Made by a program: the position numbers and the translations under genes | Notes under the pieces: model-generated | The model's database searches: none | The model's input: only the letters and a program-made list of their open reading frames with translations | What the model was told of the DNA's origin: nothing | Source: Rhizophagus irregularis | Lineage: Eukaryota > Glomeromycota > Glomeromycetes > Glomerales > Glomeraceae | NCBI RefSeq assembly: GCF_026210795.1 | Contig: NC_089436.1 | Span: 1,178,001-1,242,000 of the forward strand | Direction of reading: 5' to 3' | DNA: 64,000 nucleotides | Shown here: piece by piece, positions 601-49,931 of the stretch | How the letters are laid out: each line of letters opens with the position of its first letter | Numbering within the stretch: position 1 is the stretch's first letter

Positions 601-3205
601 ATGTCTCAACACGTTGGATCCAGAAAGACATATAATGAATGTTTCGAATGTGCACGACAACGAACAGCAGTAGCATGGTGTAAGAATTGCGATATTGCAT
701 TTTTAAAAGATAATTTTCATAATTGGACTAGTAGAAATTCTAAAATAGATGATTTTATTAAGTATACTCAGTTAAACGCTAAAGAGAGTATGGATTATCT
801 TGAATGGATTAATTTTGATCAATTCGACTTGATCGAAAATATTAATAAACGAGGCGCTTTCAGCTCGATTTATTCAGCAGTATGGATGGAAGGCCCAAAA
901 TGGAATCTTGACGAGGAGGCCGAATTATGGACTCGTACTGGTCCAATTAAGGTGATTCTAAAACGATTAGATAATTCTCAGAACATGGACCATGAATTTA
1001 TTAATCAGGCAGGTGAAAGTTTTTATCTGATCTATCCTTATAAAATTTTTTTTCAGAAAATGATCACGTGACTGGGTTTCTTTCGGAATAAAACTAGAAA
1101 AATGATCATTTATCGGAGATTTTTCTAGAATTTTTTTATAGGGTAGCCATAATTCGTTGTATAGTATATAAGTAATAAGATCTGATCTTTAAATTTTATA
1201 TAATTTTTAAACAAATTTAGATCCGTTTCTTCAGTGGATTCGTTATAGATAACAGGTTATGACGATAGTAGTGGAGTACGGTGGAAGTGTTGAGTGGAGT
1301 ACGGTGATATTTAGAAGTAACTTATAAATATGTGAAATGTACTCAAGTGATAAATAATACCTCCCATATTATGATGATGATTTTGACCAGCTCATTTTAT
1401 TTATCACTTGAGTACGTGAACCATCAATTAATTAAATTAAACTTATGTAAACTATTTATTGTAAAGTATCATATAGAAGTTTATTATTAGTAGAGAATTT
1501 TTTTGAAATGGCTTAATTTATGCCGGTTATAAATTAAATACCGGTATTTTAGATTAATTCGGATTTTTTAATTTATAATTTCTCATTTTAAAAAATATTA
1601 TAAATTAACATATACACAGTGAAATTCGATATAATGGAACCATCCGTTCAATTAGTAAAGTTTGTCAAAGATCTGTTATATCGAGAAATCCATTTCATCA
1701 ATAGTAAATTAATGATAAATCCGTTCCAGACCCCAATTCGATATATCAAGGTTCCGGTATATCGAATTTCACAGTGTTAAATTAACATAACAAGTGTTTC
1801 TCGGAAAGTAATTTATCCGTGCACGCCTTGAAACAGAAGCCATTAAATTTCCGAAACTAATTTCGATAAATCGTATTAGTCTTTGTGCAATACTACAAGA
1901 TTAAAGAAGTACACAAACCCTAAAAAAACATGACACCTCGCTTTTTTGAAAAATACTAAAGAAAAAATTTTTTTCTTATTGAGAAGTATCCAAAAAAAAG
2001 CTAAAAAAGCTTGAATTATTAATTTTTATTTGAAAAGGAAGGTGTCATGAAAAAGACAACTATTTGCAGAATTTGGGAATTGGGATGAAAACAATAAGAA
2101 TCTAGAGTTATGAACGTGTGAATTATAATAGGAATTACTACAATACTATAAGTTATCATGATCGTCAAAAAAAAATTCTAATAATAAACTTTATATGATA
2201 CACATAATTTAATTAAATTGATGGTACTCCACTCATCATTATCACACCGGACTCAACTATTCGTAGCATTTCAACCTGGTAGTACATTTTAATTGTGAAT
2301 TTCATAAAAAATAGATTGATGTCAACAATAAATTCTTAAAATTTTAATTCGCATGAGTATGATTACGTATGATAACTGATATTAACCATTTAGTCTTTTT
2401 TATCTAATAGTTATATAGATATCATAAATGCTTGCAAAGTGGAGCACTTGCAGATTGTTTTGGTATAACTAAAGACCCAACATCATGCTACATGTTCGTT
2501 ATGAGATATTATAAAAATGGAAATTTATACTCGTACCTCGAAGAAACTATGGGGATTCTTTGCTGGAGAGATATTGTAGACATGTTATGGTCAATATCCG
2601 CAGGTCTAGATTTGATTCACAAACATGACCTCGTTCATGGACATCTACATGGAGGAAATATATTGGTCGAAAGTGATGTGAACTCTATTGACACTAAAAT
2701 TACGGATACTGGATTACACGGACCAGTTGATAAACAAATACCATTCAAACAAATTTACGGTGTAGTTCCCTTTGTTGCTCCAGAGATCTTTGATGGAAAG
2801 ACGCCAACTAAAGAATCTGATGTATATAGTTTTGGTATGGTCATGTGGATGTTATCAGCTGGTGTGCGTCCTTATTGTGATAGACCTCATGATAAACAAC
2901 TAATTCAAGAAATCTGCTTAGGATTAAGACCAAGCGTCGTAGATGGAACTCCATCTGTTTTCTCCAATTTAATGTTACAATGTTTAGATGCGAATCCATC
3001 AAATAGACCAACAGCATCTCAACTTTACGAATGCTTAGGAAATTGGATCACTGCAATTTGTGATGACCCTAACCCATCCGATTTATCAGAACAATTTGAC
3101 GCTGCTGAAGAAATTAAATTCTCAAATTTAGAAAATTCTAATTTCAACACTTTTGCGATTCACGAAAAAGCTTTTTATTTCAGTCATCCATTATTAGATG
3201 CTTAG
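601..3205 (+). CDS. TKL-like pseudokinase, copy 1 (two exons, GC-AG intron)
   Basis: Exons are 601-1008 and 2411-3205, giving 400 residues. The intron starts with GC (CAG|GCAGGT) and ends AATAG; only this splice keeps the frame. Residues 14-30 hold a C-x2-C...C-x2-C zinc-type motif. The kinase fold follows: glycine-loop remnant G85-A-F-S-S-I-Y, lysine K121, helix-C glutamate E132 just before the splice point, HRD replaced by H212-G-H214, retained N219, DFG replaced by D235-T-G, APE at 259-261 and the SDVYSFG segment. Loss of the catalytic Asp predicts no phosphotransfer, while the Mg-binding residues remain. The intron is 1402 nt because transposon-like repeats sit inside it. Closest relative in the window is the copy at 28077-29724, with shared 5' end and about 1.2 kb of shared 3' flank. 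The role is unknown; signalling scaffold is the usual guess for such proteins. Confidence 0.9.
1615..1782. mobile_element. short TIR element nested in intron (pogo/Tc1-like ends)
   Basis: The ends are near-perfect inverted repeats: ACACAGTGAAATTCGATATA at the left and its complement with one change at the right, continuing into GGAACC on both sides. The CAGT...CGATATA ends are of the style seen in pogo/Tc1-type transposons. About 168 bp, no coding capacity. The element at 29814-29963 has similar ends (CAGTCAGGACTCGATATAAC). Confidence 0.65.
1830..2060. repeat. dispersed repeat, copy A (partner at 7495-7745)
   Basis: Both copies share CGCCTTGAAA, then a purine-rich GGCATT block, ACACCTCGCTTTTT and a terminal GAAAGG(C/T)GT(T/C)ATG. 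In this copy the ACACCTC block and the terminal GGTGTCATG can pair, so the unit can fold as a long hairpin. It is probably a small non-autonomous element. Confidence 0.5.
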
Positions 3206-5424
3206 AGGTTGGCGTTTCTTCTTTGTTTAATTCTCATATTTTTCAATTTATTTAACTTTTAATTTTATTATAGTTTATCATAGATTTCAATCAGAAATTT
3301 AATTCCTTTTATCGGTATTATTTATTCGTTTTTTTCGATATCACAAACACCACAAACTAAGTAATGTTTCACAAATTAACTACTATTTCGTTTAAAAGCA
3401 AATATTATACGTCCCTATATATTTCGTTTAAGATAAGCAAATATTTATACACAAACACAGAAATTTTTTTTTCTCGTAAAATAAAATAGTTTCTTTATAT
3501 TTATATCGTTATAATAAGTACTAAGAATATATGGCGGTAATAAGGTTTTAAAATAGTCTATCTCATATATGAATTTATCTAGCGTAGAATTTCCTTATTA
3601 CGAAATCTTATTCGTCAACTTTCAAATAATTTTTTACTTTTAGAAATTTTAGGTATATTTAAAGTCCGTTCAAATTAATTGTATGCTTAACTACCTATTT
3701 TTTAGTTCTAATAAATACGATAATATGTTTAGTAATACTCAAAAACAATAATTAAGTTGAAATGGACTAAATTATAAGAAATAATAACTCGCTGTTGGTA
3801 ATTTTCAAGAGCAAATTTCATTCTTATTGAAAAAAAAAAGATGTATCTTATTATGTGTAAAGATATAATAAATTCTTTTTATTCGATAACTGTAACAAAA
3901 CGAATATGGTTTCCAAATTATGATTGTCCTTCAATTCGTAAATTGCGTTCAGAATCATTCCGTACAACGGTACAAGATTTTCCTTATTTTGTTGTTCTGC
4001 AATTCAAGTCTCAACTCTTGGTCTAAGCAGCGATATGTTCTGTAAGTTGGAAGCATATTCCAAATCTTCCAAATCTAATAAAAATGATTGGAAGCCTCCG
4101 TTATAAAAAATACGCATGTATAAGGTAATACGTGTTGAATTATAAATAGAAAGCTTCCAATGCATATCACTAATCTAGAATGTTCAACTAACGATTGATT
4201 CGTGATTCCTCTACTAACGATTTAAGACGTGTTTAATTAGTTAAAAGCTTAAAACCCATCTGAGTAAGTCAATATTTTAGTCGTTATTCTTTTAAATTTA
4301 TAATAATATCAGAGCTGTTACGGATAATAATATTTCGTTTGCGATACTTTTTATCTTTCTATTAATAAATCTTATAAACTTTGTCACCTATTACCAATGA
4401 ATAGATATTTTTGTAAGGCGAATTTTTTTCATAAAACTTAATGGGATGAATTACACAAATAAAAAAAGTAATTGCTAATAGACGCTACCGACTTATAAGC
4501 TATTAATTATAGCGCATGCCGTACTTTCACTTCCATTTTTACAAGACATATGCCGTTTGCTAGACCAATGAATTTGGGCATATTGCAATTTTTAGGTTGA
4601 TTGTTAAAACCTATTATTTAATTAAAATATTAATCATTAATTATTTGTATATATTTATTCAAATATAAAAAAAAATAAATTATAAATTAATTAAAGATTA
4701 TTTAAGTATAAAACATTTTATTACCTTAAATAAATAGATTAATTAAAAAAGTTTCTATACAAAAATACATAAATATTGCATGCTAATAAAGTATTAGCAA
4801 GTAAATAATCCATATACTAAACCTATAAAACTACTAATACTTTCTTGACTTGTTTTTATCGTTTTCCGTAAAAGGCTCGTATTTCCGGAATTAATCACGG
4901 AATTTATCGAATTGTTTACATTTTCCATGAATGGATCCGTGAAAACGGAGTTTTTACAGAAATAACGGATAAAAATTTTATAGGGCAAATAGTTAAAAAT
5001 ACATATTATTAGTGTATTAAGCGCCTAAAAATAATTTTTTACAAATAAATATATAATAGCTTTAAAAATATTAGTTATTGTCTCTAAATACGACAAAAGG
5101 TATTTTTTATTAATACTTACAGTACCAACAACATTTTAGCATTATTCAATAACCCAAAGAAAGTGTGATCGAAGTGTTTTCTGTGATCTAAAGTGTGATC
5201 TCAAAGTTAAGCAGTAAATATATTGAATTTTTTCTAGTAAAAAGACTTCGAGTTCAGAGTATACAGTATGCAAAGAGTCCATTTATCGTGACACATAAAG
5301 AAATTAAAATGTTATTAAAAAAAAAAAAAGTTTCGCAATCTAAACATATTGGTTATTATTAATAACGAAAATAATCATTATTATTTAGTATTTCATGGGG
5401 AGTTGGGAATAATAGGGTTTTTTT
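3206..5424. other. intergenic region, mostly 3' flank shared with copy 3
   Basis: From the stop codon to about 4490 the sequence can be matched block by block to 29725-31310, for example CACAAAC..CACAAACT, AACAAAACGAATA, CATTCCGTACAA, GAAGCAGCGATGT and GATGAATTACACAAATAAAA. This shows a duplication larger than the gene itself. The rest is AT-rich with no convincing gene. Around 5160-5215 AGTGTGATC is repeated three times. Confidence 0.55.
4824..4986. mobile_element. TIR element of the CCCTATAAAA family
   Basis: The right end reads ACGGAGTTTTTACAG then AATAACGGATAAAA and TTTTATAGGG, identical in style to the ends at 27542-28064. Internal words (CCGTGAAAA, GGATCCGTG, TTTCCGGAATTA) also recur there. 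The left end is decayed. No coding capacity. Confidence 0.55.
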
Positions 5425-8155: not shown

Positions 8156-8461
8156 ATATGCGGCAGCGTGAGCACAACACTGATTTACTGATTAGATCGC
8201 GAGATAATCGCAGCAAAAGATTTCATATACTTTATAAATCCATTTTAATGCGTGACAAAATAAAATTATTTTAAAGATTGACTACTATAAATAATAAAAT
8301 CTAGATTTTTTAAATTATATATAAATATACATCCTTCTTTAAAAGGAGAATTAAGAAACTTCTTACTAAACTTCAAATATTTCTCGTATAATAACGATTT
8401 AGAGAAACATCGTATCTTGATTATCTTGATTAACTATATCAAGAAATATTATAATAGTATC

Positions 8462-10075
8462 ATGAATTTATATTATAATAGTTTTGTGACATACTTTGGA
8501 TTGTTTATTTTAATATGTCTAACCGGATTTATTACGTCAGTTGGAGTCGGACGTATAGAATTGGTGTTTCCGGTCGGTAGCGCTTTTATAACAGCAATAC
8601 CGATGATTCTAACATACGTATCGTTGCATCTAATTATGCGGATTATTAGTAATCTGCTTAATTGGGTGATGAGTTATTTAATAATATATAACGAAAGAGA
8701 AATTGAACCACGCGCTTTAATGGCAGTAGCCAATAATCAAGATACCGGAATGTTACAGTCTGTTAAACTATTATTAACAGAGAGAAAAGTTCCACTAGTA
8801 CTAAGAATTATTATTTTTATAATTGCTTTAGTTGGAACACTCGAAATAGTTATTGGATTTGCAATAAGCACAACTACAATACCAGGATCTTTATCAATTA
8901 AGGGTGGAGCGTTTAACGCTGATCCTTTAAAACCATGTGTGGAAGAGGACGGGGGATGTCCGGCATTATTGCAATCTAAATTTAGGTTTCAGTGGTTACA
9001 AGGTGCTTCAGATTTGATGGTAAATGGAATTTCTAAGCAGTTATCTATGCACTGGGGAGATTTAGTTGATGATGAAAGAATAGTGATGGTAGCAACAACC
9101 GATAACAATTCAAATATAAATTATAAGTTGGTACAAGCTAAGAATGAGACTATTCCAGCTTTTAGTTTGAGTACTATGTGTTACAATACTCCTGAAACTT
9201 ATCCAATTCTAGGATCAAATTCTTTTCGTGATCTAAATATAACACAACCAACCCCATTATTTGATTTAATACAAACCATACAAGCAAATTCTGGATTAGA
9301 GGGTCGGTGGATGGGAGAAATTGTTAAACTTGAGCAAGATAATCTTAATGAAACTACTCGAATAACCCTAAATTTCGTACAAATATTACCCGTCAACTCA
9401 TCATGTGTCGGAAAGTTTGATATAGCTGGAAACTTACAGATATGTCGTCCTACAAAAGGTTTACAAATTAGCTGCTTAATGAATGCACATGTTGATTATG
9501 TTGAATATATAACAGCAGGATGTGATACCTGTGGTACTAGAGGAATTAGTAACAATAGAGTAGATTACTCTAGCCCAAAGCCAGTATATGGTGAATTTAT
9601 GCATAAATCATTAGCATCATATGATGGTCATATCCTGATGCCTCAATGCAAAGACACAGTTAATTTTGGAGGATGTTTGGCTCCTGACACAAATAATGTG
9701 GATCTGGTAAGAGCTAAATTTATCGAATTATTACGTGGCATTACTGCCTCTGGAGTCATTGCTAGACGAATCTTATTGTCAGATAAAGGCATAGAAATAC
9801 CAGTCCAGCTTTTAATTAAAGGAGAAACTGGAGTGAGATTAGAAATCGGGGGAGGATATTGGATTACTATACTTATAATGAATATTTTATGCTTTTTAGG
9901 AGTTGTTGGTTGGTTATTCATAAAATACAGAGAAATGGGAGGACGTACAATACCTCAAATATCTATTGAATGGTTAATGTTCGAAGCTGAAGATGCAGAT
10001 GATTGTATTAGAGAAGATAATGGTAAATGTAGAATTGAATATGCCAATGACACGTTTTCAATAATTCCAGTATAG
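8462..10075 (+). CDS. multi-pass membrane protein with large Cys-rich ectodomain, unrecognised
   Basis: A single open frame of 537 residues from the first ATG (8462); the frame extends upstream only through non-ATG codons. Hydrophobic segments lie at about 8-28, 40-62, 112-135 and 466-489. Residues about 136-465 form a large domain with paired cysteines (CVEEDGGC, CDTC, CKDTVNFGGC) and several N-x-S/T sites, consistent with an extracytoplasmic, disulfide-bonded, glycosylated region. The last 48 residues are acidic and probably cytosolic. A TATA-like stretch is at 8314-8330 and AATAAA at 10173-10178. I do not recognise a named domain. Codon usage and length argue for a real intronless gene. 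Confidence 0.85.
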   Translation: MNLYYNSFVTYFGLFILICLTGFITSVGVGRIELVFPVGSAFITAIPMILTYVSLHLIMRIISNLLNWVMSYLIIYNEREIEPRALMAVANNQDTGMLQSVKLLLTERKVPLVLRIIIFIIALVGTLEIVIGFAISTTTIPGSLSIKGGAFNADPLKPCVEEDGGCPALLQSKFRFQWLQGASDLMVNGISKQLSMHWGDLVDDERIVMVATTDNNSNINYKLVQAKNETIPAFSLSTMCYNTPETYPILGSNSFRDLNITQPTPLFDLIQTIQANSGLEGRWMGEIVKLEQDNLNETTRITLNFVQILPVNSSCVGKFDIAGNLQICRPTKGLQISCLMNAHVDYVEYITAGCDTCGTRGISNNRVDYSSPKPVYGEFMHKSLASYDGHILMPQCKDTVNFGGCLAPDTNNVDLVRAKFIELLRGITASGVIARRILLSDKGIEIPVQLLIKGETGVRLEIGGGYWITILIMNILCFLGVVGWLFIKYREMGGRTIPQISIEWLMFEAEDADDCIREDNGKCRIEYANDTFSIIPV

Positions 10076-10078
10076 TAC

Positions 10079-19338: not shown

Positions 19339-21855
19339 ATGTCTCAACATTCCGGATCCAGAAAGACTTACGGGGAGTGTTCAGATTGTAAAAGGCAGCG
19401 AATTGCGGTTGCATGGTGTAAGAATTGCGATGTTATAAATTTGAAAGAAAATTTTCATAATTGGACTAGTGAAAATACTAAAATTGATGAATTTATAAAA
19501 TATACTCAGTTAAATGCTAAAAGTTGTATGGACTGTCTTGAATGGATTGAATTTGACCATTTTGACTTGATAGAGAATATAAATAAACGAGGAGCCTTCA
19601 GCTCAATTTATTCCGCAGTATGGATGGAAGGTCCAAGGTGGAATTTAGATGAAGAGGCAGAAATATGGACTCGAAGTGGCCCCATCAAGGTTATTTTAAA
19701 ACGATTAAATAATTCTCAGAATATGAGTCAAGAATTTGTGAATCAGGCAAGTATTTAATTTATTCAATAACATATCAGGTACATGTTCTGATCAGGTTTC
19801 GCAAACCAATAAACATGTGATCAAAATGCTCAACAATCAATCCTGAAAAATTTTTAATGTTGGACCAACATCAAAAAATTTTTATACGCGCCTTGAAAAA
19901 GTTTGTTTAATTATATGCGCACTATATGTAAGAATAAAATAATAATAAGCGCAATTACAATTTAATGTGCGTTGCGTCTAGAGTTGGATGCAAATGCCGA
20001 AACTCTTTGCCGAAATCCCAAACTAAATTCTAGATTTCAGCAATGGTTTGAAATTTTGACAATAGTTAGTAATCAAATTGAAATCCCAAATCCCAAAGTT
20101 GCCAAAATCCCAAACTGCTGCTGAAAATCAAAAACTTATGCCAAATTTCAAATTATTACCGAAATTCAACTTTAAAATTTGATTTGGGATTTCGGCAAAG
20201 AGTTTCGGCGCCCAACTCTAAGTTGCGTCTATTTACCGTATTTTGCGGGCCACAGTACCCCCTATGCACAGTACCCGTTTCAGACCCGAATTCTTGACGG
20301 GTAAATGGGTTGACCCATTAAGGTACTAATACAAACCCGGGTTGGCACCTGCTAAGGAAAGTTTGACCCGGTTTCTTATTGGGTTAACCCAGGTTGGTTA
20401 ACAGCAGGTCGATAAACGGTTTGATAAAGGGTTTTAACGGTTGGATAGCGGGTGTTAACGGGTTAATGATGGTTTAATCAGATCAAACGCATCAAAAGTT
20501 CTCCAACCCGTTTAGCTAACCGTTTAAACCGATAACCCGATAATCCGTTAAAAACTGATATCCGATATCATTTATCGGGTTTAAATCGGTTGTATCCGAT
20601 AATTTAAACGGATATCCGTTATAGCCTGTTAATAACGGGTTACGGGTCTGAACACTACGGCCACATGAAATTTTTTTTGGTTTTTTAAAGTACCCGGATA
20701 TTATTTTGCATGGATATTCGATTTTTAACCTTTAAAATTTGTAATATACTCGTGGTATAATACTAGGAACTGTATTGTAAAATAAATTACGCAATATAAA
20801 TTCCTGTACCCATACCCCAGGTACTATGCCCCCCCTTATACGGTATATCACTGATTTATGGCCATATTATGAAAGAAAAAATAGAATTATAAACAAATTT
20901 GATCGTAAAACTAACGAGATAATAATCACGAATTATTAAATTAAATTTTGGGTGGTGATAGAATCGGACCAACAATATTTTGACTCACATGAAATGACTA
21001 TATATATTATTTATTATTAACCATCTTATCTTTTTTTAAAAAAAATAAAATTAATAGTTGTACAGATATTATAAATGCTTGCAAAGTGGAGCACTTGCAG
21101 AATGTTTTGGTGTAACCAAAGATCCAACGGCATGTTACATGTTCGTTATGAGGTATTACAAAAACGGGAATTTATACATGTATCTTGAAGAAACTATGGG
21201 AATTCTTTGTTGGAGAGATATTGTAGATATGTTATGGTCAATATCCGCAGGTCTAAATTTTATTCATGGACATGGTCTTGTTCATGGAAATTTACACGGA
21301 GGAAATATACTAGTCGAGTGTGACGTGAACTCGATTGATACTAAAATCACAGATACCGGATTGCACTTGCCTGCTGATAAATTGATGTCATTTCAACAAA
21401 TTTATGGCGTAATACCTTTCGTTGCTCCGGAGATTTTTAACAAAAATTTGCTAACTAAAGCCTCCGATATTTATAGCTTTGGCATGATCATGTGGATGTT
21501 GTCAGCTGGTGTACGTCCTTATTATGATAGACCTCATGATAAACAACTTATTAAAGAAATCTGTTCGGGTTTAAGACCAAGTATTGTCAATGGGACTCCA
21601 GCTGTTTATTCTAGATTAATGTTTCAGTGCTTAGATGTTAATCCATTAAACAGGCCAGCAGCATCTCAACTTCATGAATGCTTTGGAAATTGGATCTCAG
21701 AAATTTGTGATAGTCCTGATCCATCCGATTTATCTAATCAATTTGATGCTGCCGAAGAAATCAAATTTTCAAATTTAAAAAATTTTGATTTTAACATAGC
21801 ACAATGTCATGAAATGGCTATTTATTGTAGTCGCCCATTATTAGATCATGCTTAA
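19339..21855 (+). CDS. TKL-like pseudokinase, copy 2 (HGN variant, GC-AG intron)
   Basis: Exons 19339-19746 and 21058-21855 give 401 residues. The donor is CAG|GCAAGT, a textbook GC-AG site, and the acceptor is TTAATAG. C14/C17 and C27/C30 form the N-terminal zinc-type motif. The kinase part keeps GAFSSIY, the lysine in VILKRL, DTG and APE, but the HRD motif is HGN (residues 212-214), so Asn rather than His stands at the catalytic Asp position. It is the most divergent of copies 1-3 (for example HLPADKL after DTG, and a TITYCSRPLLDHA-like tail). The 1311-nt intron holds two transposon-like elements. Likely a signalling pseudokinase; partner unknown. Confidence 0.9.
19979..20222. mobile_element. 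TIR element in intron of kinase copy 2, 8-bp TSD
   Basis: Inverted ends TAGAGTTGG...GCCGAAACTC, then TTTGCCGAAATCCCAAA, match the complement at 20181-20220. GTTGCGTC lies directly on both sides (19971-19978 and 20223-20230), an 8-bp target-site duplication as in hAT-type elements. The interior repeats CCCAAA and CCGAAA words. Decayed pieces of the same family are near 56930-57000 and 60490-60590. Confidence 0.7.
20234..20845. mobile_element. TIR element with GGGTTAACC-rich core in same intron
   Basis: Ends TACCGTATTTTGCGG (20234) and TTATACGGTA (20845) belong to the same end type as 8034-8155. The core (about 20290-20650) is unusually GC-rich and made of overlapping GGGTTAACGG, GATAACCCG and GTTTAAACGG words on both strands. 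No open frame. It accounts for nearly half of the intron. Confidence 0.65.
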
Positions 21856-24201: not shown

Positions 24202-24560
24202 GTTTACTTACTTGATCTATAAATTCTTGACTTATATTATGAGAATTATCCAAACTTTTTAGAATAACCTTAATTGGACCAGTACGAGCCCATACTTCGA
24301 CTTCTTCATCCAAATTCCACCTTGGACCTTCGATCATTCGAGGTAGTCCATACTTTCCTTAGCGTTTAATTGAGTAAATCTGATAAATTCATCTATTTTA
24401 GAATTTCCACTAGTCCCAATTTGGAAAGCATGTTTTCAGGTTCACGATATCACATTTTTCACACCATATCGTCGCCGTTCGTTGTCGCTTACATAAGCAT
24501 GTACCATAAGTTTCTCTTGATCCAAAGCGTTTCAATAAAACAGAAGTTTCTAATGAAAGA
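24202..24560 (-). pseudogene. kinase-family exon 1 pseudogene with internal deletion
   Basis: On the minus strand, remnants of the CxxC module (RRTIWCEKCDIV) are followed by a damaged linker, WTSGNSKIDEFIRFTQLNAK and ESMDYLE. The segment that should encode the glycine loop is deleted, and the frame shifts into the WNLDEEVEVWARTGPIKVIL region. The donor CAA|GTAAGT is still intact at its end, showing it belonged to the GT-AG subgroup. No exon 2 is visible downstream on the minus strand. Confidence 0.85.
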
Positions 24561-28064: not shown

Positions 28065-28076
28065 AAACGCTTCAAG

Positions 28077-29724
28077 ATGTCTCAACACGCTGGATCCAGA
28101 AAAAATTTTGGTAAGTGTTTTGATTGTGAACGGCAACGAACAGCGATAGCGTGGTGTGAGAATTGCGATATTGCATTTTTCAAAGATAATTTTCGTAATT
28201 GGACTAGTGGAAATTCTAAAATAGACGAACTTATTAAATATACTCAGTTAAGCGCTAAAGAGAATATGGATTATCTTGAGTGGATTGATTTTGATCAATT
28301 CGACTTGATCGAAAATATTAATAAACGAGGCGCTTTCAGTTCGATTTATTCAGCAGTATGGATGGAAGGCCCAAGATGGAATCTTGATGAAGAAACCGAA
28401 ATATGGTCTCGTACTGGTCCAATTAAGGTGATTCTAAAACGATTAGATAATTCTCAGAACATAGATCGAGAATTTGTAAATCAGGCAAGTAAACATAGAT
28501 ATATTAAATCGATCAGGCAATTCGTGTATAAGTAAAAAAAAATAAAAAATCATAATTTAAAATTATACAATAATACGTTTTGATAAATGTTACAAAATTT
28601 CCGAAAACACAGACATGTTATCAGTTTTATTAATGTCTCCGGTTAATATTATAATTTTTCTATGAGAATTATTTTATAAAATTTTTCATCGCTCTGGCCA
28701 AGTTTTTAAATTAACGCAAATGGATCATTAATAATTTGACCAGGATTACACGATCACATTAAATGACTATAGTTTGCCATTTGATTTTAAAATGACACAT
28801 GAACAACTTGAATAATAAATTATTAAATTTAAAATTCCAATTCGCATTAGAATGACTACATATTATAACTGAAAGGTATTGATATTAATTTTTTTTCTTT
28901 TTTTCTTTCTTAAAATTAATCTAATCAAGTTATATAGATATAATAAGTGCTTGCAAAGTGGAGCACTTGCAGATTGTTTTGGTATAACTAAAGACCCAAC
29001 ATCATGCTACATGTTCGTTATGAGATATTATAAAAATGGGAATTTATACTCGTACCTTGAAGAAACTAGGGGGATTCTTTGCTGGAGAGATATTGTAGAT
29101 ATGTTATGGTCAATATCCACGGGTCTAAATTTTATTCACAAACACGATCGCGTCCATGGACATTTACATGGAGGAAATGTATTAGTTGAAAATGAAACGG
29201 GCTCAATCGACACTAAAATTACGGACACTGGATTACACGGGCTTGTTGATAAACAAATATCATCACAACAAATATATGGCGTAATACCTTTTGTTGCTCC
29301 AGAGATCTTTGATGGAAATACGCCAACTAAAGAATCTGATATCTATAGTTTTGGTATGGTCATGTGGATGTTATCAGCTGGTGTACGTCCTTATTATGAT
29401 AGACCTCATAATAAACAACTAATTCAGGAAATCTGTTTAGGATTAAGACCAAGCATCGTAAATGGAACTCCACCTGTTTTCTCCAGTTTAATGTTACAAT
29501 GTTTAGATACGAATCCATCAAATAGACCAACAGTATCTCAACTTTACGAATGTCTTGGAAATTGGGTCATAGCAATCTGTGACGATCCCAATCAATCCGA
29601 TTTATCAGATCAATTTGACTCTGCTGAAGAGATTAAATTCTCAAATTTAGAAAAGTCTAATTTCAATACTTTCGCAATTCACGAAGAAGCTTTTTATTTC
29701 AGTCGTCCGTTATTAGATGTTTAA
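28077..29724 (+). CDS. TKL-like pseudokinase, copy 3 (GC-AG intron)
   Basis: Exons 28077-28484 and 28930-29724 give 400 residues, the same length as copy 1. The donor is CAG|GCAAGT and the acceptor AATCAAG; the intron is 445 nt. The zinc-type motif (C14/C17, C27/C30), GAFSSIY, lysine of VILKRL, HGH in place of HRD (212-214), N219, DTG and APE are all present, and the frame is open throughout. Close to copy 1, and the 3' flanks also match. The upstream side is different: the TIR element at 27542-28064 ends 12 bp before the ATG, so the ancestral promoter has been replaced or displaced. Whether it is expressed is therefore uncertain. Confidence 0.9.
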
Positions 29725-33994: not shown

Positions 33995-35490
33995 CTGGAT
34001 TATAATCTTGAATCTTCGTTTCGTTCACTGAGCCCTTCTGGGTCTCAAGATGAGTCTCAATCTTATGGTAATTGTTCAGAATGTAAACAAAAACGAACTG
34101 CAGTAGCATGGTGTAAAAATTGCGATATAGCATTTTTTAAAGAAAATTTTTGTAGATGGACCAGCGGAAATTCTAAAATTGATGAATTTATAAGACATAC
34201 TCAATTAAATGCTAGTGAAAATATGGATTATCTCGAGTGCATTGAATTCGATCAATTTGATTTAGTTGAGAATATTAATAAACAAGGTGCTTTTATTTCA
34301 ATTTATTCTGCAATATGGATGGAAGGTCCAAGATGGAGCGTAGATGAAGAAGCTGAAGTATGGAATCGTAAAGGCCCAATTAAGGTTGCATTAAAACGCT
34401 TAGATAATTCTCAAAATATGAGTCAAGAATTTATAAATCAAGTAAGTAATAATAAGTATACAAAATAAAAAGCATCTTATTGACGAGTTTTAAGAACCAT
34501 AAATTTTACTTGGATGAAGCTCAATTTATCATCGTGGTTTAAATTGTAAGCTTCGGATGGGAATCAAATTAATGTCCTCCCATAGCGAAATTTGAGTAAT
34601 AAATGACCATAATAACATTTGCTCTAAATAAAACACCTATTAAAAAATTTATCTAATCATATATCAGACAATAGAATAAATTTTAATCTCAATTTCTTTT
34701 TCTTTATTTCTCACTTACCCAAAAAAAACAGTTGTTCAGATATTATAAATGCTTACAAAATGGAGCACTTGCGGATTGTTTTGGTATAACAAAAGATCCG
34801 ACATCGTGTTACATGTTCGTTTTAAGATATTATAAAAATGAAAATTTATATTCGTATCTCGATGAATCTATAGGAGTTCTTTGCTGGAGAGATATCATAG
34901 ATATGTTACGGTCAATATCTACGGGTCTTAATGTTATTCATGAGCATAATCTCGTTCATGGACATTTGCATGGAGGAAATGTATTAGTTGAAAGTAAAGC
35001 AAATTCAATTGATGCCAAAATTTCTGACACTGGATTACATGGACCTGTCAATAAACAAATATCATCCAAACATATTTACGGCGTGATACCTTTTGTTGCA
35101 CCAGAGGTCTTTGATTGAAATACATCAACCAAAGAATCCGATATATACAGCTTTGGCATGATCATGTGGATGTTATCAGCTGGTGTACGTCCTTATAATA
35201 ATAAATCTCATGATTCACAACTTATACAAGAAATCTGCTCGGGATTAAGACCAAGTGTTATTAGTGGGACTCCACCTGCTTTCGCTAGATTAATGTTACA
35301 ATGTTTGGATGCTGATCCATCGAAGAGACCTACAGCATCCCAACTTTACGAATGGTTAGGAAACTGGGTTACAGCAATCTGTGACGATCCTGAAACTAAA
35401 TTTGTAAATTTAGAAAAGTTAAACCTTAGGAATTTACCATGCCATGAAAATGCCATTTATTTCAGTCATCAATTAGTTTCACAAATTTAG
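33995..35490 (+). pseudogene. TKL-like pseudokinase, copy 4, broken
   Basis: By alignment with copy 7, exon 1 runs from 33995 to 34441 and exon 2 from 34732 to 35490, with a CAA|GTAAGT donor and an AACAG acceptor. Two lesions are visible. The conserved start is CTG (CTGGATTATAAT) where copy 7 has ATG, with no in-frame ATG until 34223, after the zinc motif. In exon 2 a TGA at 35116-35118 replaces the Gly codon after FD in the activation-segment region. The zinc motif, HGH, DTG and APE are otherwise intact, so inactivation looks recent. The C-terminal linker is also shorter than in copy 7. Confidence 0.88.
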
Positions 35491-38055: not shown

Positions 38056-39782
38056 TCAGTAATATACACCAATGGAATCTAATGGACGACTAATATAGAT
38101 GGCATTTTCGTGACATGGTGTAATATTAAACTTTAATTTATCTAAATTTGCGAATTTAGTTTCTTCTGCGACATCAAATTGATCAGATAAATCTGATTGT
38201 TCGGGATCGTCGCATATTGCTGTAACCCAATTTCCTAACCATTCGTAAAGTTGAGATGCTGTTGGTCTAATTGATGGATTCGCATCTAAACATTTTAACA
38301 TTAAACTGGAGAAAACAGGTGGAGTTCCATTGACTATATTCGGTCTGGTTCCCGAACAAATCTCTTGTATAAGTTGTGAATCATGAGGTCTATCACAATA
38401 AGGACGCACACAAGCTGATAACATCCACATAATCATGCCAAAACTATAGATATCAGATTCTTTGGTTGGTGTATTTCCATCAAAGATCTCTGGAGCAACA
38501 AATGGAATTACACCGTAATTTTGTGATATTTTTCCATTAGCATGTCCGTGTAATCCCGTATCTGTGATTTTAGCATCAATTGAATCCAGCTCATTTTCAA
38601 CTAAAATATTTCCTCCATGTAAATGACCATGAACGAGATTATATTCATGAATAAAATTAAGACCAGCTGATATTGACCATAGCATTTCTACGATATCTTT
38701 CCAGCATAGAATTCCCATAGTTTCATCGAGATACGAATATAAATTTCCATTTTTGTAATATCTTATAACGAACATGTAACTTGATGTTGGATCTTTTGTC
38801 ATACCAAAACAATCTGTTAGTGCTCCACTTTGTAAACATTTGTGATATCTGTATAACTATAAAATAAAAGAAAAAAGAATAAGTAAAAAGTGCGTGATCA
38901 TAAAAATAGCAATATAAATTTTGAAATTAATTTTGGTACTATAAAAAACTATTTTAAGTCTATAGTTCTATTGCATTAATTTGTGCCCCATATTTAATAA
39001 AGTAACAAACACATTGGTTGAAAGGATATTTTAATGCTGTAATTTTATACATGGGGTGAATTAGGTTCAAGTCATACCGAAATATTACGACATTACACCA
39101 ATTCGGCATTACACCGGTGTAATGCTGGTGTAGTACTATTTTCATATGAATCTTCGAACAAAAATTCGGTAATATATTTCTCCATTACGCCGCCTTAATG
39201 CCGAACTATTTGAAATAATCACTTCCCCCATGTATAAATTGTTGTATTACAGAAAAAAAATCGGTACAACAAAAGATACGTCATCCTAACAAACCAACCA
39301 ATAATTAAATATCACTTATTACTTCATTGACAAGTTGACGAATAAGAGATATTACTTACTTGGTTTACAAATTCTTGACTGATGTTCTGAGAATTGTCTA
39401 ATCGTTTTAGGATGACCTTAATGGGACCATTGCGAGTCCAAACTTCGGCCTCTTCATCTAGATTCCATCTAGGCCCTTCCATCCATATTGCGGAATAAAT
39501 TGAACTGAAAGCACCTCGTTTATTAATATTTTCGATCAATTCAAATTGGTCAAAATCAATCCATTCAAGATAGTCCATACTCTCATTTGCATTTAGTTGG
39601 GTATCTCTAATAAATTTATCTATTAAGAAATTTCCACTAGTCCAATTATGGAAATTTTCTTTCAAAAATGCAATATCGCAATTTTTACACCATGATACCG
39701 CAGTTCGTTGTTTTTGACAATCTTGACATTCACCATAATCAGCGTTTGAGATAATTTTTTGAGACCTAAAACACGGGTCCAA
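38056..39782 (-). CDS. TKL-like pseudokinase, copy 6 (conserved start codon is TTG)
   Basis: Exon 1 is 39782-39360 and exon 2 38856-38056 (407 residues if read from the position aligned with the copy 7 start). The donor is CAA|GTAAGT and the acceptor TTTATAG. Zinc-type CQDC and WCKNC, GAFSSIY, the lysine, HGH for HRD, N, DTG and APE are all intact and the frame is open from start to stop. At the aligned start (LDPCFRSQ, compare MDYNTESSFRS) the codon is TTG, and no in-frame ATG exists upstream before a TAA. The next in-frame ATG would remove the zinc module. It may use TTG, an unseen upstream exon, or be an early pseudogene. The intron (501 nt) contains a TIR element at 39041-39240. Confidence 0.8.
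39041..39240. mobile_element. TIR element in intron of kinase copy 6
   Basis: AATTTTATACATGGGGTGA at the left is the inverse of TCACTTCCCCCATGTATAAATT-type sequence at the right, and CCGAAATATTA pairs with TAATGCCGAA nearby. The centre contains ATTACACCGGTGTAAT, a perfect 16-bp palindrome. Length 200 bp; no coding capacity. Confidence 0.65.
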
Positions 39783-39808
39783 AGGGTGCTCCAGTTTGAG
39801 AATTACTT

Positions 39809-41521: not shown

Positions 41522-42791
41522 ATGACTTTAGAAGGTTTATATGACAATTGTACTAATTGCAAACGACAACGAACTGCGGTATTATGGTGTAAAAATTGCG
41601 ATATTGCATTCTTAAAAGAAAATTTCCGCAGTTGGACCAGCGAAAATCCAAATATAGATGAATTTATTAGGCATACTCAACTAAACGCTAATGAGAGTAT
41701 GGACTATCTTGAATGGATTGATTTTGACCAATTTGAATTGATCGAAAATATTAATAAACGAGGTGCTTTCAGTTCAATTTATTCCGCAATATGGATGGAA
41801 GGGCCCAGATGGAATCTGGATGAAGAGGCCGAAGTTTGGACTCACAATGGTCCCATTAAGGTCATCCTAAAACGATTAGACAATTCTCAGAATATCAGTC
41901 AAGAATTTGTAAACCAAGTAAGTATAAATCTGTCACCAAGCGAAATTCAGGTTGTTTATACTGTGGAAGTCAATAAGTCAATATTGGTCAGCATCTCCTA
42001 ACTTTTCAATCAAAAAAAAGTTATATAGATATTACAAATGTGTGCAAAATGGAGCACTCGCAGATTACTTTGGCGTAACTAAAGATCCGACATCATGTTA
42101 CATGTTCGTTATGAGATATTATGAAAGTGGGAATTTATATTCGTATCTTGACGAATCCATGGGAGCCCTTTGCTGGAGAGATATTGTAGATATGTTATTG
42201 TCAATATCCGCAGGTCTCAATGTTATTCATGAATCTGGTCTTATTCATGGACACTTACACGGAGGAAATATATTAATTGAAAGAAAAATGAATTCAATTC
42301 ATGCTAAAATCGCTGATACTGGATTACACGGACCTGTTAACAAACAAATAGCGCAAATTTATGGTGTAATACCCTTCGTTTCTCCAGAAATATTTGATGG
42401 AAATATACCAACCAAAGAATCTGATATCTATAGTTTTGGTATGATCATGTGGATGCTATCAGCTGGGGTACGTCCTTATTGTGACAGACCTCATGATTCA
42501 CAACTCATACAACAAATTTGCTCAGGCTTAAGACCAAGCGTTGTTTGTGGAACCCCCTCAGCTTTCTCTAAATTAATGCTACAATGTTTAATTGCTAGTC
42601 CATCAAGTAGACCTACGGTATCCCAAATTTTCAAATGTTTAGGAGATTGGGTTTCCGGTTTATCAAATCAGTTTGATGATACCGAAGTTCCATTCGCAAA
42701 TTTGGAAAAGTTAAGTCTTCGGTCTTTATTATGTCATAAAAAAGCCATCTATTTTAGCCGTCCGTTAGATTCCATCATTATTCAGTATTGA
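41522..42791 (+). CDS. TKL-like pseudokinase, copy 5 (short intron)
   Basis: Exons 41522-41917 and 42021-42791 give 388 residues. The intron is only 103 nt (CAA|GTAAGT...CAAAAAAAAG), the shortest in the family and free of repeats, so it may reflect the ancestral state. The start is an ATG with a short leader (MTLEGLYDN) before the zinc-type CTNC...WCKNC. GAFSSIY, the lysine of VILKRL, HGH for HRD (LIHGHLHGGN), DTG and APE are present. It differs in SPEIF where others have APEIF or APEVF, and the C-terminal linker is shortened (no CDDP...DLSxQFD-preceding segment). Open throughout; best candidate for an active gene of the GT subgroup. Confidence 0.9.
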
Positions 42792-43523: not shown

Positions 43524-43650
43524 GTACAGTGAGGGTGTACGATATTAAAGTACGAACTGGCGGGAATTAACTTTAACGCTATCACGTGCAAGTGCATAAC
43601 TCCTAAACTCGGGCCAATTCGTACGTTAATATCGTACACCTTCACTGTAC
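43524..43650. mobile_element. 127-bp TIR element GTACAGTGAGGGTGTACGAT
   Basis: The first 33 bp are inverted at the right end with two changes (right end complement begins GTACAGTGAAGGTGTACGAT). The termini start after T/C next to TA, in the style of Tc1/pogo elements. Too small to code. Confidence 0.75.
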
Positions 43651-43680
43651 GTTTGATAGGAAAACGAGAACTGTTAAAAG

Positions 43681-44012: not shown

Positions 44013-44020
44013 GTTAAAGT

Positions 44021-45299
44021 CTGTCTCATTGCTTAATAGTGAAAAAAATAAAAGGGGGAAAATATATTGATAAAATCAAAGTGATACAAATAAAATCGAA
44101 GAATAGAAAGGTGATACATATAAAAAGTGTATAATCAATAATCGAAAAAAAGGAAACGGGGTACAACTAGCTTATTCAAAAAAAGAAATCGGAAGAAAGG
44201 AAGGTAGGAAATTGCAGGGTTAACACAATTAGTATATGACCGTACAGTCACGCTTCGCCAGACACAACATTGCATTCATATTTAGATATTTTAAATAAAT
44301 CTCATCTTCTCATTATGTTCGAGGTTATATAATTTAATTAAAAACTAATATTTTATACTAATAATTATAAAAAAAATTTTGAAAGGTTTCGCTAAGTTTC
44401 GTTAGTATTGCATCTTTCCTCTCGTTCAATATCTTGTTGATAAATGACAACACATTTAAAAGCAATAATTCCACTTGTTCTAACTTATTTCTTTCAATAA
44501 TTCCTGCTTCTTAAGTTTCATGATGTATGCAAGATTATAATATTATTTCCGTGCGCATAAAACAATAACTGCTTAATAAATATATGTTGTTTCAATTTTC
44601 ATATTTTACTTCTAAAGTGTTAGTGAAAGTAATTTAATTTTCTTTCATAAATAAATTATAATTCATAGACGTGTATTTACGTGCTTTTTCATGCTATATT
44701 GCTATAAGCTTCCTTAGTCTTCAGCACATAGTTTTAAAACGATAAAAAGAATTTGGATATCGGATTAATAAATTATTGAATAAATTAGTAATTGTTTACC
44801 AAAGGAAAAGGATCATTTTATTGGACTTTATAAATACGTTCATGATGATGATTCGTTTATTTGACGATAAATAAGAATAATCAGGTCTTAAGTATACATT
44901 TATACAGTAATTAGAGTATTAGATTTTTTGCCAAATATTGTAATATAGTAAATGGTGTGGGGACGCATTCGTTTCACCGACACACGATATGTGACAATTA
45001 CTAAACACCTGGCCCACATTACGGCATAACTCCGGCCATTATGTTTATACATAGTCAGTGAAATGAAGTAATGAACCACACCTCATTAAATGATGTCGAA
45101 AAGAAAAGCAGATAAATGAACTATTGCTATTTTGCTTAAGATTGGTGTAAGATTATGCTTGTTTATACACTCTCATTCGCAATTTAGTTGTTTATTTCTG
45201 ATTGATCGAGCATTTGATCACGTATTTTATTTGTTGGTGCAACGTGAACGATACGTAAGTAAAGATTATTATGATCGAAATTAATGAAAATTAATTTTC
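44021..45299. other. intergenic, no gene
   Basis: AT-rich. A slightly GC-richer patch at 44950-45060 (GTGTGGGGACGC, CCGACACACG, GGCCCACATTACGGC) has no frame and no clear repeat partner in the window. Confidence 0.4.
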
Positions 45300-45860
45300 T
45301 CAAACTGACCCGTTCCCAGTCTATAAACTTCTGTTCTAGACTTCCTCTTGAAATTAATACAGCTGACCCGATCTCAACTTTAGGTCACTAGATGTAATCG
45401 CACTTCGAATGGGATAAGGCTAACAACATTCATTACACACAAATCCAAACGTCAAAACGTCAGTAACCAGAGCTGATCCATATATAGGAAATGATAATGA
45501 TGAATCGCCACCCTGGACAATGCGTCGGAACTTACTCTACAGATAAACCTCCTCCTATAACACGAAGGAACGATTTAAGCAGATCTAATTTTTATTTTGA
45601 GTTTGATATTAGTTTAAATTGTTGTTTATTAATTCTGATTTTAGATTTTAATTTATAGATTATATTGGTTATAATTTTATGTTATATTCATAGTTTATTT
45701 AATTTTGTTATTTTTATTTTTATTTTTTATATTATATTATAATTATTCAATACCGGAAATGGGGTTCTTGTTTCAGGGGTTACTACCTACATACTCACTG
45801 GATTCTGCTGGTGTTAGTATAGAAATGTTTTCCTAATAAAGCTACTGCTTCCAATAAGGA
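45300..45860. other. GC-richer island followed by AATAAA and A-run
   Basis: 45310-45600 is less AT-rich than its surroundings and has a 47-codon open stretch (KTSVTRADPYIGNDNDESPP...), but no start, splice or domain that I recognise. At 45832-45880 CCTAATAAAGCTACTGCTTC is followed by an A-run, like a transcript end. It may be a terminal exon with 3' UTR or the end of a retroelement. Confidence 0.3.
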
Positions 45861-47664
45861 TAATTAAAAAAAAATGAAAATTAATTAACATCACAAGCTA
45901 TTGAGTTAAGTGTTTGATAAATAATATCAAAAAAAGATTATCATAATTGATTTAAAATTTTTTGGTGCTTCAAAAAACACACCAATAAGCATATGCAATT
46001 CCGTGTACGATATATCAATTGATAAAAAAAGCCGATATTATTTAGATAATATTGATAAATTTATATGCATTAAATATGTATTAAATAATATATTCGAGCA
46101 CAAATTCAGAATATATTTTAATTCGTGATCCGTAAGTCAACGGTACAAAATTATGTCGATCATTGGTAATACTCGATTTTCATTTCTTAAGTAATGCTCT
46201 TTATGTAAACCCATTCAATACCAACATATTTTAATGCATAATATTTATATATTTTCCGATCGCTTGCAGTTGACTCGTTGGATCACGAATTAATTTTTTT
46301 CTAAATGAAAATTTTCATTGCTTAACGCACTCTTTTATTTGAGCTTTTTCTTATAGTTTTTGTAATTAGTACGAAATTAAAATTCTGTCCAATATCAATC
46401 AGCAATGCACAAATACTATTATGCGTTTTTTCCACGAGCCTTTTTTAGAAAGCACTGCCGTCCGTTAAACTTCATTGGATGTAATCTTAGATAATGATTA
46501 TTAAACAATTATGTCAGTTTTGTGTAACGAAGTAGGTAAATCTTACCACAGATAGGCGACGTATGTAACGCACCATCTTACCATCTCAAGTAGTGCAGGT
46601 GATGATTTGTCACAAGGTCACGTGATAGAGGTGGTCGCGTTGTTTATATTTTAATATCTCTGCGACTTAGAATATTTTTTTGTGGTCTGATCTCTATTTG
46701 TCGCTTGCATAAAATGTCACATACTTTATGTGGCGTGATAATGATAATCCCGAGATGTCAAACCGAATTGACATTTTTAAGCCCCTAAATTGCTACATAT
46801 CCAATGATCCATTGAAAATCTATACTTAAATAGTACTATAATAACAGATAAGGAATTATTTTTGAATTAATTTACATATAGAGACTCATTTTTAATGTAG
46901 GATAATATTAAAGTAATAATACATTAATTAAATGAAGAATTAAATTTATGGATTGTTTCAAATTTAGTAATGATATAGGTTTTAATTAGTACTTTTTATG
47001 TTCGTATTATCACATGTATTGTTTAAAAAGAAATTTAATATTTAGAAAAAAATTTGATTTGTTATATTTGTTTGAAAAATATTTTCTTTGTTTCTTTTTC
47101 ACAAAGAAAAAAAAAGGAACACCCAATTATACAATAACTATAGCGCTGATTTGGAAGTCCATTGTATAGGATAACTTACGTAATATGCAATGACTAAAAG
47201 AAAATTCTAAACATTTTAGTATTTAATATCCGTTTTACATTGTTTCTTAATATGTAAGTAATAATTATGCAATGATTACAAATAAAGTTTCCTATTTGGA
47301 GTTGAATAATTCCGATAATATAAATACTAATTAAATAGTGTATCACATAAAATTAATTAACAATGAAAATCAAAGGGAGAGTCCCTCAAAAAATCAATTT
47401 ACAATAAAAAATTGGTGACTCTTTTTCTTTCTACAATGTAACCAAATCGATAAAAAAAGGGCACTTTTTATGAAAGTCAAGAAAGGGCGAAGATAAAGAA
47501 ATTCAGTTTGCATAACAGAATATTTATAAGTGGGCCTACTCTTGTTAGCTGTCGAATCTATGCAAACTAACACTTTATATGACATCACGCCACCCCAAAG
47601 ACAAGCCCCATTTTTTATAGCACGAATTTGTTTCTTAATATTATTTTAAGAAAATTCCTAATTT
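45861..47664. other. intergenic, no gene
   Basis: AT-rich; no coding or repeat structure that I can support. GTCACGTGA occurs at about 46618. Confidence 0.4.
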
Positions 47665-47809
47665 TAACCGGAGGGAAATTCCTCCCGTGACGAATAATGG
47701 GGTGACGAATAGGATTTTTAATAACAAAAAATTTCTCTGTCTCCAGATTAATTAACAAAAATGAACCCTAACTCTAATAAATATTAGGGGAGGGAATTTC
47801 CCTCCGGTA
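47665..47809. mobile_element. TIR element TAACCGGAGGGAAATTCC, copy B
   Basis: Inverted ends TAACCGGAGGGAAATTCC and GGGAATTTCCCTCCGGTA, with GTGACGAATAATGGGGTGAC and AAAATTTCTCTGTC inside. Reverse-complement relative of 10541-10738, with an internal deletion. Confidence 0.75.
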
Positions 47810-48131
47810 GGTATTTTCTTATTTTAAACATAATTTATTATCATATATATCATATATTTTGCATAAGTAAAAAAAAACTTATAAAATCTTAGTAAAAAGG
47901 CACAAAAGAAAAGGGATAGTTACTATAAAAACAAATTTGCGATTTCGAAAAAAAAAGAGGTTGGTAACGAATTGAATTTAAAATTAATGGAGTTTTTGAA
48001 CGTTAATTTAAATTTTTAATGCTTATAAACACGATACGAAATTAAAATTGTTTGGTAAACAAACTTATTGTACGATAAATAGATACTCTCTATTTTAATT
48101 CGATTAGGATTAGATGACGATATTTATGCAT

Positions 48132-49931
48132 TCACATTTTCCCAAAGAAAAATGGCGTAGAGGAAGACTCATTATTGATAATAGAATCTAATGGACGACT
48201 AAAATAAATAGCATTTTCATGACACGGTGTATTATTAAACTTTAATTTATCTAAATTTGCGAATTTAGTTTCTTCTGCGACATCAAATTGATTAGATAAA
48301 TCGGACGGATCGGGGTCGTCACAAATTGCTGTAACCCAATTGCCTAACCATTCGTAAAGTTGGGATGCTGTCGGTCTCTTCGATGGATCAGCATCTAAAC
48401 ATTGTAACATTAATCTAGCGAAAACAGGTGGAGTTCCACTAATAACATTTGGTCTTAATCCTGAGCAGATTTCTTGTATAAGTTGTGAATCATGAGGTTT
48501 ATCGTGATAAGGACGTACACCAGCTGATAACATCCACATGATCATACCAAGGCTATAGATATCAGATTCTTTGGTCGGTGTATTTCCATTAAAGACCTCT
48601 GGTGCAACAAAAGGTATCACGCCATACACGTGTTGTGATGGCATTTGTTTATCAAAAGGTCCGTGTAATCCAGTATCCGTGATTTTAGTATCAATTGAGT
48701 CCATTTCGTTTTCAACTAATACATTTCCTCCATGTAAATGTCCATGAACGAGATTATGCTCATGAATAACATGGAGGCCCGCAGAGATTGACCACAACAT
48801 ATCTACAATATCTCTCCAGCAGAGAATTCCCATAGTTTCATCGAGATACGAATATAAATTTCCATTTTTGTAATATCTTATAACGAACATATAACACGAA
48901 GTTGGATCTTTTGTTATACCAAAACAATCCGCAAGTGCTCCATTTTGTAAACATTTGTGGTATTTGTATAACTTTTTTTGAGTAAATTATAAATTTTTTT
49001 AAAAAAAAGCAGAGAAAAAAACAAAGAAAAACATAATATTAATATATATTCTATTGTTTGTAATATAAATAGATTAATTAAATGCATCTAGGTTTTAACG
49101 TAGCATAATTGTTTATATTTGATCTACTGAAGATCCGGAGAAATGTTTATATCCAGTGTTTGTTATTCTGGCTATACCAATTATGCATTAATAATTTATA
49201 CATTCTATGAAAGGACTTAATCATCTAATTTTATTAAGTTCATTCACCAATGGTGGGATATCAATTTAATTCGCGAGCTTATCATAGTTTATTAAACTAT
49301 AATGATAAGCTTCAAAGGATAAAATTAATATCCCATCCAGGTAGAATTTTATGGGGCAATTAATGCATAATTTATAATTTATTTCTAGATATAAAAGGAC
49401 ATTTGAATATATAATCAATTTTGAGATTGACAGCAGATCAATCTCAAAATTCGTTAATAAGATACTTTTATTTTATGTACTTACTTGATTTATAAATTCT
49501 TGACTCATATTTTGAGAATTATCCAAACGTTTCAATACAACCTTAATTGGGCCATTACGATTCCATACTTCGGCTTCTTCATCTAAATTCCATCTTGGAC
49601 CTTCCATCCAAACTGCCGAATAAATTGAACTAAAGGCACCTCGCTTATTAATATTCTCAACTAAATCAAATTGATCAAATTCAATCCATTCGAGGTGGTC
49701 TATATTTTCATTAGCACTTAATTGAGTATCCCTTATAAATTTATCAATTATAGAATTTCCGCTGGTCCAGCTACAAAAATTTTCTTTCAAAATCGCTATA
49801 TCGCAATTTTTACACCATGCTACTGCAGTTCGTTTTTGTTTACATTCTGAACAATTACCGTAAGATTGAGATTCATTTTGAGATCTAGAAGGGCTCAGTG
49901 AACGAAACGAAGATTCAGTATTATAATCCAT
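48132..49931 (-). CDS. TKL-like pseudokinase, copy 7
   Basis: Exon 1 49931-49485 and exon 2 48971-48132 give 428 residues, the longest copy. ATG start MDYNTESSFRSLSPSRS gives a Ser-rich leader before CSEC...WCKNC. GAFSSIY, VVLKRL, HGH for HRD, DTG and APE are all present; the tail is extended after RPLDSI by NNESSSTPFFFGKM. Donor CAA|GTAAGT, acceptor AAAAAAAG; the 513-nt intron contains an inverted repeat (49253-49338) partly shared with the copy 4 intron. The upstream sequence is homologous to that of copy 4, and a 44-bp perfect palindrome abuts the ATG. Intact and probably functional as a pseudokinase. Confidence 0.9.
49253..49338. repeat. inverted repeat in intron of copy 7
   Basis: GTGGGATATCAATTTAATTC and AGCTTATCATAGTTTA are answered by TAAACTATAATGATAAGCTT and AAAATTAATATCCCATCC, giving a hairpin of about 38-bp arms with a small bulge. 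The intron of copy 4 has a shortened relative (34540-34585: GTAAGCTTCGGATGGGA, ATTAATGTCCTCCCAT). Confidence 0.6.

Follow-up and report, generated by a model that had tools for sequence, protein, structure and literature searches.

Replacement of the HRD motif in the kinase catalytic loop by HGX, with a basic residue at X, is an already known convergence of pseudokinases in the accounts cited here. In Toxoplasma, ROP5 carries HG[R/K/H] and ROP36 carries HGH (PMC3682881), and ROP5B is described as binding ATP and as probably inactive (PMC3682881, PMC4718504). HGN is found in the Arabidopsis ARLPKs (PMC4848489) and in the JH2 domain of the JAK kinases, where Ala stands for the helix-C Glu, the DxG motif reads DPG and the β3 Lys contacts the DPG Asp (PMC6287396). 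HER3, which lacks both the helix-C Glu and the HRD Asp, still binds ATP at ~1 µM (PMC4718504), and PSKH2 orthologues vary at the catalytic base, which is Asp, Asn or His (PMC7586955). A change of Arg to Gly at HRD is given for 19 of ~50 human pseudokinases versus 8 of ~500 active kinases (PMC4718504). Here we describe kinase-like genes of Rhizophagus irregularis, a fungus with an expanded kinome of 2,533 reported kinase genes (PMC10234402). They lie in a stretch of 64,000 nucleotides (contig C8, positions 1,178,001-1,242,000, in a 146.7-Mb genome of 32 contigs), which we call the window. These genes probably belong to a lineage-specific family of tyrosine kinase-like (TKL) pseudokinases that is maintained, has a pocket resembling those of JAK JH2 and HER3, and is probably regulatory. 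The family itself is new, and a literature search with fungal terms had no paper on it among the matches listed. Kwon et al. reportedly surveyed pseudokinases across life in 2019, fungal expansions included.

Seven two-exon kinase-like genes were found between positions 601 and 49931 of the window, five on the forward and two on the reverse strand (Table 1). The first exon encodes a CxxC..WC[K/E]NC module, the β3 Lys and helix C, and the remainder follows in the second exon after an AG acceptor. All six intact second exons matched PF07714 (best E-value 1.2 × 10−34), and the first exon alone had no Pfam match in the two cases tried. Sel1 had no match in those window exons and other frames that were scanned; MLKL-like Sel1 proteins have been reported from Glomeromycotina (PMC8778642). 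As an earlier note on this DNA had claimed, HRD is replaced in every window copy (HGH in six, HGN in one) and DTG follows downstream of the loop in all seven. The Lys, the loop Asn, the DxG Asp and the APE motif are kept as well, with copy 6 reading SPE. The note was wrong in listing the helix-C Glu among the kept residues, as the position is Gln in all seven window copies, and Gln (50) or Arg (1) in the 51 first exons of the wider family. When the spliced copy 3 was aligned to the solved chains of a Src/Abl ancestor and of Lck, this Gln fell on the helix-C Glu and HGHLHGGN fell on the HRD loop. By sequence, a pseudokinase is defined by absence of at least one of the VAIK Lys, the HRD Asp and the DFG Asp; the HRD Asp is missing from 7/7 window copies and from all 54 family members in the tree described below.

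The family shares with JAK JH2 the lack of a helix-C Glu, an altered middle residue of DxG, and retention of the Lys, the Asn and the DxG Asp (PMC6287396, PMC4718504). Gly replaces the HRD Arg in 40 of the 54 family rows that have lost the Asp, and the exact HGN of JH2 occurs in part of them. Unlike JH2, which is fused to an active kinase, family members have one kinase domain behind a CxxC..WCxxC N-terminus and form a gene array; the window genes end after their single kinase domain, without a JAK-type fusion. We take the likeness to be convergent. The HRN pseudokinases HER3 and PSKH2 resemble part of the family's C17 branch in this motif, HER3 also in its missing helix-C Glu (PMC4718504), but they are animal genes and do not form a large HGH array. 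The rhoptry pseudokinases ROP5, ROP4/7, ROP36 and ROP42-44 have a basic residue after HG, including HGH, and arose by lineage-specific expansion (PMC3682881). They are secreted and have an N-terminal extension of their own; in place of that extension the family carries a Cys module common to fungal TKLs, more often has Asn than His at the base position, and has fungal TKL relatives.

We next consider the tree. A protein search with copy 3 ranked relatives on contigs C8, C15 and C17 and a few single copies above the Asp-bearing kinases, which start at ~40% identity; 150 of 3,371 candidates were scored, so the counts are lower bounds. We fetched 120 stretches and built a tree of 94 C-terminal (second) exons and 209 columns, from which the second and third HRD residues and the second DFG residue had been removed. 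Omitted were loci with a readable C-terminal exon shorter than 200 amino acids (L027, L028, L041, L043, L048, L055-L059, L072 and window copy 4) and L100, which had no match. The family comprises 54 of the 94 rows and forms a single clade spread over nine contigs (ultrafast bootstrap 100, Shimodaira-Hasegawa-like approximate likelihood ratio test 96; further pairs of support values are in this order). Its third HRD residue is Asn in 30 rows, His in 21 and Tyr in three, and never Asp, while the second is Gly (40), Arg (7) or Lys (7), and the middle of DxG is Thr (28), Val (24), Leu (1) or Ile (1). The 40 rows outside the family sample the expanded TKLs of R. irregularis, which, where sampled, have a like gene plan of Cys module, intron after helix C and HxDLHxGN-type loop. 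The 40 rows differ from the family in retaining the HRD Asp in 34 rows (Asn in the other six) and the helix-C Glu in 16 of the 17 read. Their DxG motif is DMG in 20 rows, DLG in 17, DFG in two and DIG in one, so that DTG did not come directly from DFG.

Within the family, a branch of 21 rows from C15 and C17 (100/99) reads H[R/K/G]N, with one LKN, and has DVG in 20 of 21 rows. The window belongs to the remaining branch (33 rows, mostly from C8; 99/87). This one reads HG[H/N/Y], with one HRN, and its DxG motif is DTG in 28 rows but DVG in four. Since an HRN-type branch stands beside the HG[H/N/Y] branch in one clade, loss of the Asp preceded HGH, and an HRN/HKN-like family ancestor is more probable than one with HGH. 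On this tree, the loss is also older than the growth of the family to more than 50 copies in the genome. The idea of an inactive ancestor that later expanded is thus supported as far as the missing Asp goes, and is less probable with HGH as the ancestral state. Similarly, what all copies have in common is the missing Asp and not HGH, because the third HRD residue changed at least ten times within the family. With no Asp in 54 rows of one clade, the tree with HRD-bearing relatives did not give the repeated, independent origin of HGH from HRD that would speak against an inactive ancestor, within the one genome examined. Over all 94 rows, the Asp state changed at least four times. One of these changes covers the family. 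It may take in L060 as well (98/83) and, though this is weakly supported (63/40), also L054, an HRN/DIG row that retains the helix-C Glu. A single clade of the 40 HG rows was rejected (approximately unbiased test, p = 1.2 × 10−8), although such a constraint excludes the nested HRN row L012 and includes L052. A fairer constraint, which unites the C8 branch (33 rows) with the C15 rows (7), was not rejected (p = 0.106).

Two further loci deserve mention here. L060 (C8:677199-681000) contains two adjacent kinase domains that lack the Asp. The first reads HGN/DMG and is the closest tree neighbour of the 54-row family (98/83), and the second reads HKN/DTG and has an N-lobe of its own. L063, which goes with L103 (C14:2026709-2028680), is a copy outside the family with HGN/DLG, Gln for the helix-C Glu and an odd Gly-rich loop, and apparently reached the same pocket independently.

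To describe the spread of the motif, we searched the genome for the back-translated pattern HG[H/N][L/F]H[R/S/G]GN. It occurs at 43 sites in 146.7 Mb versus none for a reversed-pattern control, and is therefore not due to chance. Of these sites, 25 are on C8 and 11 on C15, while C1, C3, C11, C17, C18, C26 and C28 have a single site each. All but one of the C8 sites fall within ~402 kb (948,961-1,351,165), an array that contains the window and in which a wider pattern detected three further copies, two of them HGY and one HRN. Loops with the Asp are far more numerous, as H.D[L/F]H.GN has 1,735 genome sites (control 1), compared with 253 sites (control 50) where the codon at the Asp place starts with A, C or T. 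As a very rough estimate, a tenth of such loops may be without the Asp; these are counts of motifs, not of genes. Some members of this very large set of TKLs are non-catalytic by sequence, which bears on the reading of kinase counts in such genomes. The change of Arg to Gly is in itself no marker of inactivity in this genome: we rejected it because HGD[L/F]HxGN, with Gly at the HRD Arg and the Asp kept, has 149 sites. Among the 100 of these that were listed, the HGDFHDGN-like form predominates, and C7 carries many.

The nucleotide pocket was compared through an alignment of first exons, which 13 of 20 fetched upstream stretches entered and from which the family rows L035, L015 and L002 were left out. 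The helix-C Glu is present in 14/14 non-family rows aligned; counting three more readable ones (L065 and L091 with Glu, L063 with Gln) gives the 16 of 17 mentioned above. By contrast with the lost Asp and Glu, other residues of the site are retained, with the VAIK Lys in 50 of the 51 first exons read from the family and the loop Asn, the DxG Asp and Gly, the APE Glu and the helix-F Asp each in 54/54 rows. The Gly-rich loop differs between the branches. It has normal length in all 20 rows from C15 and C17, where its last Gly is Gly (6), Ser (13) or Asn (1), and one extra residue in all 31 C8-branch rows, where the last Gly is replaced by Ser (30) or Thr (1). The extra residue is absent from 14/14 non-family rows. 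The Cys module is found in 50 of 51 family rows, and among the 14 non-family rows CxxC occurs in all and WCxxC in 11. The module, noted earlier as CxxC...WCKNC and indeed present in all seven window copies (WCENC in copy 3), is by this comparison ancestral. Its pattern in relatives outside the family makes it an inheritance rather than a sign of a new scaffold role, and weakens the hint at scaffolding that had been drawn from it.

Purifying selection maintains the family, as judged from codon substitution. Codon-model omega was 0.168 for 26 C8-branch copies, 0.169 for four deeper copies and 0.123 for 21 C15/C17 copies, compared with 0.213 for 14 active DMG relatives, and a counting method gave pairwise medians of 0.162, 0.222, 0.179 and 0.43 in the same order; the choice of readable copies lowers omega somewhat. 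Both exons are open in at least 46 of 65 loci, a lower bound, because L034, L039, L047 and L053 escape the text pattern although no inner stop interrupts their matches. All 53 readable first exons are followed by a GT (48) or GC (5) donor. The codons at the base position are AAY in 30 rows, CAY in 21 and TAY in three, each one base away from GAY. In a four-state model of the family subtree, forbidding entry of Asp was better than free entry (2ΔlnL 8.4-12.6 over three root settings and two kappa values). Selection therefore appears to keep the fold and to bar the return of Asp, a statistical statement made under a simple model.

How did such a family arise? Its ancestor would have been an active fungal TKL gene with a CxxC..WCxxC module, a kinase domain and an intron directly after the helix-C Glu codon. 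The tree and alignments show that the base was lost (HRD to HRN/HKN) and the helix-C Glu became Gln before the family multiplied. The window's branch then gained the extra Gly-loop residue, Gly for the HRD Arg, His, Asn or Tyr at the base, and DTG, as the same data show, while the nucleotide site kept its Lys, Asn and Asp, as in JAK JH2 and HER3. Because the base and the helix-C Glu are lost while Lys, Asn and Asp are kept, phosphate transfer is unlikely and some members perhaps hold a nucleotide. We are fairly confident that the family performs no efficient phosphotransfer, and lean slightly towards nucleotide binding by at least some members. The proteins may work as conformational partners; the most plausible proteins for them to pair with are active TKL kinases encoded by this genome, on which they could act as a brake, as an allosteric activator or as a decoy. 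That regulation of active kinases is their main role is a suggestion we make with some reserve. More speculative is the idea of a repertoire held dead by selection, in which the base codon roams among AAY, CAY and TAY and in none of 54 copies encodes Asp, whereas the three conserved residues of the nucleotide site (Lys, Asn, Asp) stay frozen. Its members would be diversified, non-catalytic, nucleotide-gated partners for the active TKLs of an obligate plant symbiont, and the JAK-JH2-like pocket would have been reached independently and stepwise, through HRD, HRN, HGN and HGH.

Could the copies instead be kinases of unusual mechanism, or duplicates in decay? His is able to serve as a base, and JAK2 JH2, with Asn at the base place, is described as weakly autophosphorylating (PMC4718504), so that a His base or slow, base-free transfer can be imagined. 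Such activity is nonetheless improbable, given that His swaps with Asn and Tyr in the family (21, 30 and 3 rows; at least ten changes), that the helix-C Glu is lost, and that the loop HGxLHGGN offers no neighbouring Asp as a substitute. Decay is seen in individual copies, namely window copy 4, the remnant at 24.2-24.5 kb, and L043 and L055-L059 with stops or partial exons. As an account of the whole family, in which tandem-array pseudogenes are being lost, it is very improbable, in view of omega values of 0.12-0.17 in the readable copies, even allowing for their selection, and of the open exon pairs and regular splice sites in most loci.

A pure scaffold, in which the window's branch binds no nucleotide and keeps a protein-binding surface only, is a more serious candidate, although we consider it unlikely. 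It would account for the extra Gly-loop residue with Ser or Thr for the last Gly (31/31 C8-branch rows) and for the polar Thr in the middle of DxG (28/54 rows), but retention of the Lys, the loop Asn and the DxG Asp in nearly every row goes beyond the needs of a disused pocket. Several observations nevertheless weigh against a maintained, nucleotide-holding family as we favour it. The VAIK Ala is replaced by Ile or Val in 27/27 DTG-branch rows (window copy 4, outside this set, retains the Ala), which also fits the scaffold, and a bulkier residue at this position is described as usually hindering ATP binding (PMC6442604). Together with the altered Gly-rich loop, this suggests that most window copies may hold no nucleotide. 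Structure predictions from the window alignment were unusable, with a mean predicted local distance difference test score of 38.1 for the C-terminal and 38.5 for the N-terminal exon. Moreover, the omega comparison rests on a single active group, the test of Asp exclusion uses a simple four-state model on a protein tree, sequence exchange among array copies may inflate its result, and the single genome limits the scope. On the other side, JAK2 JH2 has a large residue, Leu, at the place of the VAIK Ala and still binds ATP (PMC4718504). Whichever role applies, one genome holds in one well-supported clade a graded series that starts with HRN/DVG copies lacking the extra Gly-loop residue and ends with HGH/DTG copies that have it, which makes the order of kinase death and reuse testable with living intermediates.

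Table 1. Exons and remnants of the kinase-like genes in the window (window coordinates).
Feature	Position	Strand	Remarks
Copy 1, exon 1 (CxxC..WCKNC module, β3 Lys, helix C with Gln)	601..1008	+	GC donor follows
Copy 1, exon 2 (HGHLHGGN at 2636-2659, DTG)	2411..3205	+	
Copy 2, exon 1	19339..19746	+	GC donor follows
Copy 2, exon 2 (HGNLHGGN at 21283-21306, DTG)	21058..21855	+	
Exon-1 fragment, 24 codons	22733..22804	-	
Decayed exon-1 remnant of an eighth copy	24203..24523	-	43% identity to copy 3
Copy 3, exon 1	28077..28484	+	GC donor follows
Copy 3, exon 2 (HGHLHGGN at 29155-29178, DTG)	28930..29724	+	
Copy 4, exon 1	34028..34441	+	Start uncertain; frame open from 33980
Copy 4, exon 2 (HGHLHGGN at 34957-34980, DTG)	34732..35490	+	In-frame stop at 35116-35118
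Copy 5, exon 2 (HGHLHGGN at 38608-38631, DTG)	38056..38856	-	
Copy 5, exon 1	39360..39764	-	Start uncertain; frame open from 39839
Copy 6, exon 1	41522..41917	+	
Copy 6, exon 2 (HGHLHGGN at 42246-42269, DTG)	42021..42791	+	
Copy 7, exon 2 (HGHLHGGN at 48723-48746, DTG)	48132..48971	-	
Copy 7, exon 1	49485..49931	-	

Given its in-frame stop in exon 2, copy 4 is likely a pseudogene. The 5' splice site directly after the helix-C codon is GC instead of GT at window positions 1009, 19747 and 28485, and at loci L001 and L004. In the tree of C-terminal exons, copy 2 groups apart from copies 1 and 3 although all three have the GC donor; an exon may have been exchanged, or the donor may have changed in parallel. 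Elsewhere in the window, a 594-codon open frame on the forward strand (8291-10075) looks membrane-spanning by eye and had no Pfam match at an E-value of 0.01. Of the open frames at 54327-56103 on the reverse strand, one gave a match to PHP_C (PF13263) below the cut-off (E-value 4.3 × 10−4, 20.2 versus 21.3 bits), and they perhaps represent a PHP-type gene adjoining the array.

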